A stretch of DNA of 49,993 bases from an uncultured Bacilli bacterium (GTDB lineage Bacteria > Bacillota_I > Bacilli_A > RF39 > UBA660), in NCBI GenBank assembly GCA_947629165.1, contig CANRCR010000007.1, positions 1 through 49,993 on the forward strand. Direction: 5' to 3'. The notes beneath the pieces are model-generated. The model searched no databases and had not been told where the DNA came from. It saw only the letters and a program-made list of their open reading frames with translations. Shown in pieces: positions 10,938-20,340 of this stretch; position 1 is the first letter of the stretch; the number at the start of each line of letters is the position of its first letter. The translations under genes were made by a program, and so were the position numbers.

Positions 10938-12377
10938 CTAATCATTATCATCTTTTTCATAAATTAATTTTATTGTTTCAGGCCAAGAAGTAACCTCATA
11001 AAATGGGTAACCCTTGTACCTTTTTCCAAAATCTTTAAACTTTTTCATTATCTCTTCTTCACTCAATTTCATTAATTGATTGTTCTTTATTACATTATAT
11101 TTTTCGAGTGGTAGAGTAAGCAGTTTTGCTGTTATTTTGCGTTCCAATTCTTCACGTCCAGCACAGGCAATTACTATTTGTTGCATATCACCCTCTATAG
11201 AGGAATACTTCTCGTACGTAAAAAAATCGTCATTATTTTCCATAAAACCTTTGTTAATCAACAAATCGAAATCGTCTTTGCGTAAAGCCAATATTATAGG
11301 AAAACGGCGATAACTTTGTTTTTTATCCTCAGATTTTATACTTTGCCCATCTCTCGTGATGTATTCCCCAGCCAAGCCATTTAGAAAGGTGGTGTAGTCT
11401 TCTACCGAGTTAACAATGTTTATTGCGTTACATAGTTTAACACTTCCATACTTTATATTCTGTCTCCTCGCGACTGGGCTAGGGTGGGTATCAAAAGCGT
11501 CAAAAACGTTACCACGATTTCCTAAAGTTCTTATTAAGTCAATTGCTCGAACATCGTTCCAAATAATTACAGGTTGTCCATCATATCCATCGAAAGTTAT
11601 CTTTTCATTACCACCAACTTCAAAATAGATGTCTTCCTCATTTTCTATATTTGGAAATAATTGTCTTGCTAATGCTCTACTCATTAAACCCTTTCCAGTA
11701 CCACCTTCACCACATATATAAAAATTGATACGAGTTTTTGGTGGCTTTTGATTAGTGAGTAAATATTCTTTCCTGTTTTTTTCTAACTTGTCCCAAAGTT
11801 TTGTATATAATGCTATATTTTCTTCTCTACATTCTCGTAATGTTTTTCCCTCATTTAGAACTTGGTAAAGCATTAAATCTTTATCATTAAGAATAACACC
11901 AAGACGTTCAAATTTGTTAATTTCTTCTCTAAAGTTAAAATTACTTTTTATGTTATTGTCTAGGTACTTATGCTTGCCTTTCTCTTGCTCTTTGTTACTT
12001 TCGTGAGTTAAGTATTGTACGTTTTGAATAAAAGCAGTCTCTACATTTTTTCCTTTTGGAATGTCAACTTGATTTATTGGTACTTTAAACCATTTGGCTA
12101 CAACCTCTAATTTTTCACTATTTGGTATAAAACCAACAATATGGTAGTGTTTAGGTTTTAAATCTCCGACTTTCCAATTAGGTTCATTTCCGTTTTTTTC
12201 CTTATAATTTTGATAGTCATTTTCCAAGTATGCATCTTTATCGTGTAAAATATATGCCCATTTTTTAATACTTCTATGGTTAAGGGCGTCAATGATTTGT
12301 TCTTCATCAATTAGTTTTTCGTTTGTCTTAGAATTAACTAATTGTTGAACTATATGAAAAACTTTAATCTTCATCAT
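10938..12377 (-). CDS. Replication initiator with HUH nuclease and SF3-like helicase domains
   Basis: 479 residues. The N-terminal nuclease (about 1-140) has a YILHDKD segment (42-48), the HUH metal site in PKHYHIVG (His77, His79) and a likely nucleophile Tyr122 in VQYLTHES. The C-terminal half is a P-loop ATPase: Walker A GEGGTGKG (about 223-230), a Walker B-like segment VIIWNDVR (270-277) and an Asn-containing motif C candidate, AINIVNS (about 318-324), as in superfamily 3 helicases. Rolling-circle Reps with this fusion are known from the bacterial pCRESS-type plasmids related to CRESS DNA viruses, and Rep-like proteins also serve as relaxases in some integrative mobilizable elements. AGAGGTGA precedes the first of two ATGs. 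Confidence 0.9.
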   Translation of the reverse strand: MMKIKVFHIVQQLVNSKTNEKLIDEEQIIDALNHRSIKKWAYILHDKDAYLENDYQNYKEKNGNEPNWKVGDLKPKHYHIVGFIPNSEKLEVVAKWFKVPINQVDIPKGKNVETAFIQNVQYLTHESNKEQEKGKHKYLDNNIKSNFNFREEINKFERLGVILNDKDLMLYQVLNEGKTLRECREENIALYTKLWDKLEKNRKEYLLTNQKPPKTRINFYICGEGGTGKGLMSRALARQLFPNIENEEDIYFEVGGNEKITFDGYDGQPVIIWNDVRAIDLIRTLGNRGNVFDAFDTHPSPVARRQNIKYGSVKLCNAINIVNSVEDYTTFLNGLAGEYITRDGQSIKSEDKKQSYRRFPIILALRKDDFDLLINKGFMENNDDFFTYEKYSSIEGDMQQIVIACAGREELERKITAKLLTLPLEKYNVIKNNQLMKLSEEEIMKKFKDFGKRYKGYPFYEVTSWPETIKLIYEKDDND

Positions 12378-12755: not shown

Positions 12756-13001
12756 TTATTCATCTTTTGTGTCTAAATCGTCAAGCAATCTTTTTGGGTG
12801 TATCCCTAATTGTTGCCCTATTAAATACATTGTTGGAAGGCTAATGCTTCGATAAGTATTACTTTCCAAGTCACTTATAAAACCTGTTGATAAGTTACAC
12901 TTTACAGCCAATTGTTCTTGGGTGAGACCCCTTAATTTTCGAAATTTCTTGATGTTTTTACCAACGATGTAATAACAATAGTTAGCGTCTTTTTTATCCA
13001 T
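12756..13001 (-). CDS. XRE-family helix-turn-helix regulator
   Basis: An 81-residue DNA-binding protein that is almost only a Cro/CI-type HTH. The core is IKKFRKLRGLTQEQLAVKCN, then LSTGFISDLESNTYRSISLP (recognition helix about residues 38-50) and a closing helix TMYLIGQQLGIHPKRLL. GGAGTGA precedes the ATG. It is divergent from an AbrB-type gene, and their promoters overlap one palindrome, so it probably represses itself and its neighbour. A role in keeping rep and excision silent is plausible but inferred. Confidence 0.93.
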   Translation of the reverse strand: MDKKDANYCYYIVGKNIKKFRKLRGLTQEQLAVKCNLSTGFISDLESNTYRSISLPTMYLIGQQLGIHPKRLLDDLDTKDE

Positions 13002-13039
13002 TAAATATCACTCCATTGTTATTGTTTCATAATGTTTTT

Positions 13040-13078
13040 AAAATATTCTTCGACAAATAGTCGAACAAGTGCTATAAT
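13040..13078. promoter_or_regulatory. Divergent promoters sharing one palindromic operator
   Basis: Plus strand: -35 TCGACA (13050-13055), 17 bp, -10 TATAAT (13073-13078). Minus strand: -35 TTGTTC (13063-13068), 17 bp, -10 TATTTT (13040-13045). The palindrome TTCGAC-AAATA-GTCGAA (13049-13065) lies across both -35 regions. A flanking pair TTTCATAA/TTATGAAA (13025-13032, 13081-13088) frames the region. Confidence 0.7.
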
Positions 13079-13121
13079 AATTATGAAATGAAAAAAGACT
13101 TTATAAGAAGGTGAAACAACG

Positions 13122-13367
13122 ATGTATTTAAGAAATATTGATGGTTTGGGTCGGATACATATACCAGCCGAAGCACGAGAAAAACTGAACATATCTACTA
13201 ACGAATTTGTAGAACTAGAATGTAAAAACGAATGCTTGATTATCTCTAAACGTGGTAAATCTCCAAGTGAAATGATTTCTGAACTTATAGAAAAATATAG
13301 TAAACAAATTGTAAATGGTAAAATATCATCAAAAATACTAGACGATTTGAAAAAGATAAAGTTTTAA
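13122..13367 (+). CDS. AbrB/SpoVT-type DNA-binding protein
   Basis: 81 residues. The N-terminal half, RNIDGLGRIHIPAEAREKLN followed by ISTNEFVELECKNECLIISK, is a swapped-hairpin AbrB domain with the usual GRI-hydrophobic-P pattern. The C-terminal 30 residues are helical and charged. Such proteins act as transition-state regulators or as antitoxins; no toxin gene follows, so regulator is the better guess. AAGGTGA precedes the ATG. It is transcribed from the shared divergent promoter region and is followed closely by a small lysine-rich ORF. Confidence 0.9.
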   Translation: MYLRNIDGLGRIHIPAEAREKLNISTNEFVELECKNECLIISKRGKSPSEMISELIEKYSKQIVNGKISSKILDDLKKIKF

Positions 13368-17369: not shown

Positions 17370-17456
17370 CCTCTTAAAGGAAAAACAAAACGACATTTCA
17401 TTCATAATAAAAAATTAATAACATAGAATGAAGTGTACTAAATAAATAGTACAAGA

Positions 17457-17492
17457 AAAAAAGAGATTCATAGTGTTATGGTCTCTTTTTTT
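17457..17492. terminator. Bidirectional terminator-like hairpin
   Basis: AAGAGA (17461-17466) pairs with TCTCTT (17482-17487), with A/T tracts extending it on both sides. It sits between divergent genes where no transcript should end, so it may insulate the switchable promoter at 17535 from antisense transcription. The rest of 17312-17630 holds only the two promoters and a small GTACT/AGTAC repeat. Confidence 0.55.
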
Positions 17493-17534
17493 GTAAAGAA
17501 ATAAAAAAGAAATGTGTAAATCAACATCCTACAC

Positions 17535-17562
17535 TTGACGGGGGGGGGTACTTTTTTATACA
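17535..17562 (+). promoter_or_regulatory. Promoter with a G9 tract in the spacer, candidate phase-variable switch
   Basis: -35 TTGACG (17535-17540), whose last G starts a run of nine G (17540-17548), then TACTTTTT and -10 TATACA (17557-17562). The spacer is 16 bp with G9; one added G gives 17 bp. Slipped-strand changes in the tract would tune or switch transcription of the SipW operon. Confidence 0.65.
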
Positions 17563-17630
17563 ATTAATTATAGAATAGGCTAAAGTCGATGGAAGCATAT
17601 AAAAAGAAAAGCAGTAGGAGGGGTATACCG

Positions 17631-18149
17631 ATGGCAAAATTTTTTTCGAAAAAAATATTTTCTTTTTATGCGACCTTTTTAGCATTGGTACTCTTCCTTT
17701 GTACTTTTGGTGTAACGACAAGCCGCTATATGGGGCTTGTTCAATCGGATGATCCGGTAGTAGCTGTTCCAATTCTTGATTTAAGTAATGATCAAATGGT
17801 ATATACCATCGATAAAATGCTTCCAGGAGAAGAACGTGAATATGAATTTTATGTAACGAACAAAGCAAATGACAAAATAAATGAAGTTCAATTAGACTAT
17901 CAATTTGTTATAACTTCTACTACGGAAATACCATTGCAATTTAAATTGTATGATATTACGGATAACAAAGAACAAGAATTAGTCGTGATGGATAATAAGA
18001 CCGCATCTATAGAAATGCCCCATGGTGTAGAAGAAACGCATCAATATCGGTTAAAGATTATTTGGGATAAAGCACAGAACGATGTCCGTTATGCAAATCA
18101 ACAAGTATCGCTTAAGATTGAATTAAAAGGAGCACAAGTGCTCGGTTAG
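17631..18149 (+). CDS. Exported protein of the SipW operon, TasA/CalY-like candidate
   Basis: 172 residues from ATG 17631, chosen because AGGAGGGG lies 7 nt upstream. A signal peptide (KKIFSFYATFLALVLFLCTFG, about 8-28) is followed by TTSRYMG and a beta-rich domain of about 135 residues (MLPGEEREYEFYVTN, VSLKIELKGAQ). The size, position next to a SipW-type peptidase and overall pattern suggest a secreted TasA/camelysin-like or minor pilin-like subunit. Similarity at the residue level is weak, so the family is inference. First gene of three behind the poly-G promoter. Confidence 0.8.
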   Translation: MAKFFSKKIFSFYATFLALVLFLCTFGVTTSRYMGLVQSDDPVVAVPILDLSNDQMVYTIDKMLPGEEREYEFYVTNKANDKINEVQLDYQFVITSTTEIPLQFKLYDITDNKEQELVVMDNKTASIEMPHGVEETHQYRLKIIWDKAQNDVRYANQQVSLKIELKGAQVLG

Positions 18150-18160
18150 GAAATTTATGA

Positions 18161-18688
18161 ATGAAAAAGATAGTAAAAATTGTTTTCGGAATCATATTTG
18201 GCTTTATTACTTTTTATAGTGTTTTCATTTTAATTGAACGGTTAATTGTTAAAGAGGAGACACCTAGTTTTTTTGGTTATAAAAACTTTATTGTATTAAC
18301 GGGAAGTATGAATCCTTTTTTACAAGAAGGGGATATTATTTTTGTAAAAAAGACAAATGATATCAAAGAAGGAGACATTGTAGCTTTTCGCTTTGAGGAT
18401 GCAATTATAACGCATCGTGTGGTAGAGATTGTGTCAGAAGATGGAAATAAAATGTATCAAACAAAAGGAGATGCCAACAACGATCGAGATCCGGAACTAA
18501 TCGAAGAAGATAAAATTGAAGGAGAATATCAATTCAAGATACCGAAAATAGGGAATGTTATATTATTTTTAAGATCTCCGTTTGGAACTTTCATCATATT
18601 GTTTATTTTAGTAAGTGGTTTTCTTTGGATTAACATTGATATTTTTAATCGAAGAGAGTTAGTAAAAGGAGAGGTAGGACATGAATAA
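18161..18688 (+). CDS. Signal peptidase I, SipW/ER type
   Basis: 175 residues. The N-terminal membrane segment (about 5-26) is followed by the catalytic Ser49 in VLTGSMNP and His85 in IITHRVVEI. A Ser-His arrangement rather than Ser-Lys marks the archaeal/eukaryotic-like S26B class to which Bacillus SipW belongs. A second membrane segment lies near 140-165. In Bacillus, SipW cleaves the signal peptides of the biofilm fibre proteins TasA and TapA. Here it sits between two genes with unusual signal peptides, its probable substrates. The upstream SD is weak and the next gene overlaps it by 8 bp, so the operon is translationally coupled. Confidence 0.93.
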   Translation: MKKIVKIVFGIIFGFITFYSVFILIERLIVKEETPSFFGYKNFIVLTGSMNPFLQEGDIIFVKKTNDIKEGDIVAFRFEDAIITHRVVEIVSEDGNKMYQTKGDANNDRDPELIEEDKIEGEYQFKIPKIGNVILFLRSPFGTFIILFILVSGFLWINIDIFNRRELVKGEVGHE

Positions 18689-20258
18689 ACGGGTAAAAAT
18701 AGTACTTTTATTGTTAACTATCGGAGCACTCTTTATTACGACCAATATTACCTATAGTAAATATGTTTTCATACGAAATTTTGATGCGACCGTTTCGTCC
18801 CAACCTTTCTATTTTGAAGCAATACCGGAATCAGATAATATTGTATTTCCAAGAACGCCGGACGAAAGTGATACTGATATAATACTTACGACGACTACTT
18901 CTTTTAATATCGATATTAAAAATAATGACGACACGAATTTTAATCCATTTGATACTACCTATACCATTTCCATTGTCGATAATCCGAAATTCACATTTGC
19001 TGAAGGAGATACCATTACGAAGACAATAAAAGGAGGAGAAATCATACAAGATACGATTCCCTTAACACTAAATATAGTGGATTTAGAGAATCCTTCAACC
19101 GATGTTAAAATACGTATAACTTCGACAAGCCCTTATGCTAAAACAATCGATTTAGATTATAAAGTAATTCAAGAAGGAGCCATTCAAACGATTGAAGACT
19201 TACTTGATTTAAGTCTAGCGGTACGAGATTCTTTGAAAGGAAGAAATACCAGAACGAGTGTCGATGTTACAACGCAAAGATTTAAAATGACGAGAGATCT
19301 CGATTTTGATGATGTAAATAGTTTTGAGGATCCTTATCGGACAGATTATGGGGATATAAACTTAAACGGATTTGCTGCAAAAGATTTAATTACAGAAATT
19401 AACTCCGATACAGGTTTTTTACCGATTGGTCTTAAAGAACATCGCTTTAAAGGAGTTTTCAATGGAGGAGATTATTCGTTAGCGGATTTACAAATACATA
19501 AAGCATTACAAGTTAATATTGGGTTATTTGGAGATGTCGAAAATGCGACTATTAAAAATCTTCATCTGGTAAGAGCACACGTTACAAATGAAAACCAAAC
19601 GGCCGGAATAATCGTTGGAAAAGCAAGTGGGGGAGTTTATGAAAATCTTACGACCGATGAAGCAAGTTCTGTTCAGTCAAACGATACCGAAAAAACGAAA
19701 GAGGATACCTATACGGGAGGAATTATCGGTTATGTCGAATTAAATGCCACCGTCAAAAATTGTACAAACTATGCAGCAGTAACGACAAGGTTTACCGGTG
19801 ATGCCACATCCTATTCAGGACCAGCCGGAGGAATTACAGCGTGGATGGCAAATTCTACTATTGAAGATTGTAATAACTATGGTACGATTGTAGGGCAGAG
19901 TTACGTTGGTGGAATTACGGGATTTGCAGGTATGCAAGATACTTTGGCTACTAATGGAAATGGAATGATTCGTAATTGTCATAACTATGGACCGGTTAGC
20001 ACCTATGTTACCAGTACCAATGGAGGAGCACAAATTGGTGGAATTGCCGGATATAATAAAGCGACCGGAACAGTTACCAGTTGTACCAATCATGGATCTG
20101 TTCATGGAAGAACGAATGTCGGAGGTATCATCGGTAATAATCCAGGAACGATTACGAATTGTACCAATTACAATTCAGATATTGTAGGTAGTACATCCAA
20201 CGTTGGAAGAATTGTAGGATCTGGAAAAACTGGAACGGGAAATAGTGATAAATCATAA
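18681..20258 (+). CDS. Exported protein with GLUG-type repeats, probable beta-helix adhesin
   Basis: 525 residues. The signal region KIVLLLLTIGALFITTNITY is followed by SKYVF, similar to SipW-dependent signals. Residues about 35-165 form a beta-sandwich-like domain. From about 230 on there are repeated Gly-rich units of GLUG type: TYTGGIIGYVELNATVKNCT, SYVGGITGFAG, AQIGGIAGYNKATGTVTSCT, TNVGGIIGNNPGTITNCTNY. These units occur in right-handed beta-helix surface proteins. There is no sortase motif or C-terminal membrane segment; the tail is Gly/Lys-rich. It is the likely effector of the poly-G controlled operon, a surface adhesin or fibre tip. AAAGGAGAGG precedes the ATG. Confidence 0.88.
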   Translation: MNKRVKIVLLLLTIGALFITTNITYSKYVFIRNFDATVSSQPFYFEAIPESDNIVFPRTPDESDTDIILTTTTSFNIDIKNNDDTNFNPFDTTYTISIVDNPKFTFAEGDTITKTIKGGEIIQDTIPLTLNIVDLENPSTDVKIRITSTSPYAKTIDLDYKVIQEGAIQTIEDLLDLSLAVRDSLKGRNTRTSVDVTTQRFKMTRDLDFDDVNSFEDPYRTDYGDINLNGFAAKDLITEINSDTGFLPIGLKEHRFKGVFNGGDYSLADLQIHKALQVNIGLFGDVENATIKNLHLVRAHVTNENQTAGIIVGKASGGVYENLTTDEASSVQSNDTEKTKEDTYTGGIIGYVELNATVKNCTNYAAVTTRFTGDATSYSGPAGGITAWMANSTIEDCNNYGTIVGQSYVGGITGFAGMQDTLATNGNGMIRNCHNYGPVSTYVTSTNGGAQIGGIAGYNKATGTVTSCTNHGSVHGRTNVGGIIGNNPGTITNCTNYNSDIVGSTSNVGRIVGSGKTGTGNSDKS

Positions 20259-20263
20259 AAAAG

Positions 20264-20288
20264 AAAGGACGAAAAAGTCCTTTTTTTT
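20264..20288 (+). terminator. Terminator of the SipW operon
   Basis: AAAGGAC (20264-20270), loop GAAAAA, GTCCTTT (20277-20283), T8. Confidence 0.9.
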
Positions 20289-20340
20289 GACGTAAAGACT
20301 ATCGAAAATAAAGGGAAAAACGACCATGTATTCTATTTTT

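Follow-up and report, generated by a model that had tools for sequence, protein, structure and literature searches.

The locus analyzed here raises a simple question: what is a run of nine guanines (G9) doing in a promoter spacer of an AT-rich genome, in front of an operon that encodes surface proteins? An earlier note on this DNA had proposed that slippage in the tract controls the operon. The window, by which we mean the whole stretch of 49,993 nucleotides that was analyzed, lies on contig 7 of the 1.09-Mb genome of an uncultured, gut-type member of the Bacilli, assembled into 30 contigs. Runs of at least eight Gs are found at one place in this 50-kb window and at three places in the genome.

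The G9 tract occupies positions 17540-17548 of the plus strand inside the promoter spacer, and its first G doubles as the last base of the -35 hexamer, TTGACG (17535-17540). Reading the sequence confirms the coordinates of the earlier note, which placed the tract between TTGACG and the -10 sequence TATACA (17557-17562) with a spacer of 16 bp. However, TATACA overlaps a second possible -10, TACAAT (17559-17564), which gives an 18-bp spacer at G9. Together, TTGACG and TACAAT match the consensus at 10 of 12 positions, the joint top score of the region in the promoter scan. In addition, TACAAT aligns with the -10 sequences of the two closest sisters of the window promoter, namely TAAAAT (17 bp, G8) in L052, the other SipW operon of this genome, and TAGAAT (18 bp, G9) in L055, a SipW promoter of the congener G002. 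For these two reasons we prefer TACAAT. The suggestion that one extra G would produce a 17-bp spacer is true for TATACA, whereas with TACAAT one G fewer would be needed; the direction of the optimum is therefore uncertain, and the present G9 state could exceed the 17-bp mode by one G instead of falling short of it. Thus, both the -10 that we prefer and the direction in which the optimum lies are probably not those first put forward. An imperfect AGAGA...TCTCT hairpin flanked by A/T runs was read in the sequence upstream of the promoter (17456-17493); the terminator scan of the region did not call it, and it is a possible insulator or terminator.

The operon behind this promoter has the content previously described, i.e., a SipW-type signal peptidase and two exported proteins, one of them with GLUG repeats, all on the plus strand. 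The first gene (17631-18149) encodes a TasA/camelysin-like exported protein of 172 amino acids, and its start is best set at 17631, after the ribosome binding site AGGAGG, rather than at 17589. Its likeness to the camelysin model PF12389 is weak (E = 0.0049, below the model cut-off). The best Foldseek hit of its AlphaFold model (pLDDT 71) is an archaeal bundling pilin, with a marginal E value of 1.3e-3; this pilin has been described as a TasA-like system (PMC9674648). The 172-residue protein is probably a substrate of the SipW-type peptidase. The peptidase gene (18161-18688) matches the ER-type profile TIGR02228 with 102.9 bits (cut-off 51.85); it also matches NF046067, the equivalog model for Bacillus subtilis SipW, with E = 1.3e-31, yet falls under the equivalog cut-off. 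The third gene (18681-20258) encodes the exported GLUG-repeat protein of 525 amino acids (PF07581, E = 2e-5). Its C-terminal repeat domain is predicted to be all-beta in a model with a pLDDT of 79, and a fold search of the PDB with this model returned only partial, uninformative matches. A hairpin with a T-run, read in the plus-strand sequence at 20264-20290, closes the operon; in the scan it was assigned to the minus strand. Elsewhere in the window, positions 10938-12377 encode a replication protein of the Rep_OBD plus RNA-helicase type with HTH and AbrB-like neighbors at 12756-13367, which probably points to an integrated rolling-circle element.

An orthologue of the GLUG protein that is 59% identical is encoded in a G-tract operon of G002 with a G9 promoter, and relatives with 50-59% identity are present in other SipW operons. 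At two of the relatives (L041 and L044), no G tract of at least seven was found in the DNA examined, which for L041 begins near the operon. Therefore, since this operon type occurs both with and without the tract, individual lineages have probably acquired or lost poly-G control and kept the operon type.

In this genus, long G tracts serve almost exclusively as spacers of promoters. Two of the three tracts of at least eight Gs in the window genome directly follow TTGAC, and both are upstream of SipW operons, the second being the TTGAC-G8 promoter of L052 mentioned above. The third is in frame within an open reading frame for a vWA-domain membrane protein (L002; contig 3 of G000, positions 67522-67529), where a G8 run covers codons 17-19; this is a candidate frameshift contingency locus. 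The congeners G001, G002 and G003 have 43, 30 and 27 such tracts, respectively, of which 42, 28 and 27 are within 12 nt after TTGAC. The corresponding numbers of G-tract promoters are 42, 28 and 28, the 28th site in G003 being a G7. Across the four genomes of the genus, 99 of the 103 tracts of at least eight Gs are found 0-12 nt downstream of TTGAC, a position with a chance of about 1.3% for each tract by composition, and the four exceptions are all within open reading frames. A -10 sequence follows the tract at a spacing of 14-22 bp in nearly every site that was inspected. In G002 (L275 and L276), a G9 in the open reading frame of a predicted membrane protein and a G8 in that of a predicted exported protein are possible further frameshift loci. 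In metagenome-type assemblies such as G002 and G003, many contigs stop 20-280 bp away from a G-tract promoter. Repetition of the promoters and 5' regions probably breaks these assemblies, and so the repertoires are likely to be under-counted.

The genes behind these promoters are of the kind expected for repeat-promoter contingency loci. A hydrophobic, export-like start is present in 93 of the 102 readable genes, a set that comes mostly from three congeners with many paralogues and so does not represent 102 independent cases. By comparison, such a start is seen in 3 of 21 genes that follow ordinary promoters (TTGACA-N16-18-TATAAT) in this genus (Fisher p = 3e-12). In the congeners, a single paralogous family, whose N-termini are TasA-like, accounts for most of the targets. 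For example, stretches matching one of these proteins number 53 in G001, 38 in G002, 39 in G003, 10 in G004 and a single one in the genome of the window. Searching PDB sequences with the congener surface proteins gave no convincing match. Other targets include type-IV-pilin-like proteins, PARCEL/DUF285 proteins, Ig-like surface proteins, a vWA protein and SipW itself; a few, e.g., in G328, are not exported. In two tandem arrays, L232 (G454 contig 1) and L277 (G323 contig 6), each exported-protein gene has its own G8-G10 promoter.

The number of Gs varies among copies of the promoter. In G016, eight near-identical promoters have tracts of G9, 9, 10, 11, 11, 13, 14 and 14, with spacers of 16-21 bp; 25 of the 28 possible pairs are unequal in G number, and the 37 flanking bases differ by only 2.2 on average. 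Three tandem copies in G123 have G9, G10 and G11 with identical 24-base downstream flanks, and copies in G014 have G11, G12 and G13. These are differences between promoter copies within single genomes, since one genome per species was compared. Ten candidate pairs of orthologous promoters from G001 and G003, several of them ambiguous, mostly have equal G numbers and are too few for a conclusion. Overall, tract length ranges from 7 to 22 Gs. Very long tracts of G22 (L081, G293) and G15 (L191, G396) occupy the same promoter position, and the L081 contig, which runs on into poly-A, may have a faulty end.

These observations lead us to consider slipped-strand phase variation of promoter spacing as the best explanation for the locus, and we regard it as quite probable. 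The reasons are that the repeat lies in the spacer, that the targets are exported, that near-identical copies are unequal in length and that the position of the tract within the spacer is free. As we envision it, the G9 tract would form the spacer of a sigma-70-type promoter driving the three-gene surface operon (TasA-like protein, SipW and GLUG protein), and slippage during replication would reversibly add or remove Gs and shift the distance between the -35 and -10 by single bases. Each shift may move the promoter between efficient and inefficient states and so alter transcription, and the window locus would be expected to exist in a mixture of states, cells of one clone thus differing in whether they make the surface structure. 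Related species have this device before as many as dozens of genes for exported proteins, each transcribed on its own, which would generate a combinatorial surface repertoire. Judged from sequence, the slippage-controlled SipW operon envisaged in the earlier note is therefore best kept as the preferred explanation, backed by another SipW operon elsewhere in this genome and by a wider pattern of up to 42 promoters per congener, nearly all of them before exported proteins, with copies that differ in G number in relatives.

Some observations fit phase variation less well. Tracts in the window's genus are mostly exactly G9 (66 of 85), which is steadier than in G016, G123 and G014 and steadier than fast switching predicts; the commonest spacer in G002, 20 bp, would be inactive by E. 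coli rules; and there are only two such promoters in the genome of the window. The spacer lengths of G-tract promoters as a group, which range over 15-20 bp, speak for phase variation in that they avoid the mode of ordinary promoters. By hand count, 17 bp is the mode of ordinary promoters (47 of 88), whereas it is found in only 10 of 121 G-tract promoters, for which the modal spacer is 16 bp in G001 and G003 and 20 bp in G002. Should 17 bp be the optimum, as is the case for the ordinary promoters here, the majority of copies in these assemblies would be in a weak state; alternatively, poly-G DNA may shift the spacer optimum. Loss of mismatch repair as the cause was rejected, because 43 of the 44 genomes tested have MutS, whether or not they have many G-tract promoters; any switching therefore occurs with mismatch repair probably available.

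The steadiness of the tract would also suit a fixed regulatory element, in which a dedicated protein binds the poly-G spacer and controls a surface regulon without any switching by slippage. In the window's genus (g1), where the tract is mostly nine Gs long, it sits in a cassette with some 45-60 bp of conserved sequence, and the 20-bp spacers of G002 would be compatible with an activator that adjusts spacing in the manner of MerR-type regulators. However, the distance from the tract to the -10 varies by lineage from 0 to about 11 nt, the tract spans the whole 7-22 range with unequal copies in the three genomes described above, and no regulator was identified, all of which makes this explanation unlikely. 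We consider it slightly less likely still that the tracts are structural spacers, i.e., that stiff, A-like G-rich DNA sets a constant promoter strength and that changes in length are incidental drift that serves no switching. Copies do tolerate spacers of 16-20 bp, and a poly-G helix has a shorter length and less twist than ordinary DNA, such that a spacer of 18-20 bp could function. This would leave unexplained why the tracts are nearly confined to exported-protein genes and all but missing from the rest of these AT-rich genomes. Finally, a sequencing or assembly artefact of poly-G calls, or chance, is very improbable and is effectively refuted by the TTGAC association: the assemblies look metagenomic and contigs often end near such promoters, but the tracts have unique flanking sequence and occur on both strands in more than 100 genomes, about one run of at least eight Gs would be expected per 1.2 Mb, and in the genus 99 of 103 tracts follow TTGAC.

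Promoters of this type are widespread in the family to which the window belongs. The pattern TTGAC-N0-10-G8 is present in 129 of 386 family genomes, and the reversed control pattern gave a handful of matches. A sample of the order yielded genomes of the window's own family alone, and in a class-wide sample the pattern matched in 17 of 54 family genomes and in 45 of 341 others, the latter with at most seven sites each. A second family of Bacilli (f21; G703, G714, G765 and others) has 1-7 TTGAC-Gn sites per genome in which the tract is far from the -35 and, from the matched strings, presumably close to the -10. The place of the tract in the spacer thus varies by lineage, against the -35 in the window's genus and abutting the -10 elsewhere, and therefore spacing, rather than a fixed motif, is the shared feature. 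A phage-borne element was rejected, as only 13 of 2.9 million viral contigs had the TTGAC-G pattern and none had the genus cassette.

A more tentative extension, which we offer as a possibility somewhat short of even, is that the switch has two tiers. In the window species, SipW itself would be under poly-G control in two operons, gating the maturation of all SipW substrates; in the sister species, dozens of SipW-type substrates would have poly-G promoters of their own; and slippage in promoter spacers would be the main surface diversifier of the family. If phase variation is the true explanation, a large uncultured group of Bacilli, some of which at least were sampled from rabbit gut, possesses a built-in switchboard that sets its surface proteins at random, with possible effects on colonization, phage resistance and immune recognition. 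The locus that was first noticed is one member of a very large set. The promoter states can be read in existing metagenome reads by counting the Gs per promoter, and the promoters form a natural series for measuring the effects of spacer length and poly-G structure on transcription.

The kind of mechanism proposed is already known. Phase variation by promoter spacing has been documented for porA, hif and Mycoplasma hyorhinis (PMC3899988), and in the promoters described here the repeat likewise lies between the -35 and -10. One close case is porA of Neisseria meningitidis, in which a poly-G spacer also belongs to a sigma-70 promoter for a surface protein; the porA transcript level follows the G number in the spacer, and one-base changes alter transcription (PMC3899988). 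Unlike the present case, it is Gram-negative, is named as a single promoter rather than dozens, and involves a porin and not a SipW/TasA-type system. The (TA)n promoter of hifA/hifB in Haemophilus influenzae also has its repeat between the -35 and -10 of an adhesive-fiber operon (PMC3899988), but in that system the repeat is a dinucleotide, there is one divergent promoter pair and the fibers are chaperone-usher fimbriae. As in the B. subtilis tapA-sipW-tasA operon, a SipW-type peptidase is co-transcribed with exported fiber-type proteins (PMC9674648); that operon differs in being SinR-regulated with no poly-G promoter described, and the window operon has a GLUG protein. In the literature outside subscription journals and preprints, we found no report of poly-G promoter switches in these bacteria.

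The Vlp system of M. hyorhinis, with its poly-A tracts and lipoproteins, offers a likeness to the pattern in the congeners, which have many paralogous surface genes with repeat promoters of their own (42, 28 and 28, as well as the arrays L232 and L277), in contrast to the two sites of the window genome. Vlp proteins are, from the title of reference 21 in PMC11868660, a surface-protein family expressed combinatorially, and their promoter repeats are tied to phase variation (PMC3899988). The bacteria described here differ in that the tracts are poly-G, the export signals are SipW-type, the loci are unlinked and several protein families are involved. Within the literature that could be searched, what is new is the spread of the device over a family of uncultured Bacilli, with up to dozens of loci per genome, its coupling to SipW-type export and the control of the processing enzyme itself.
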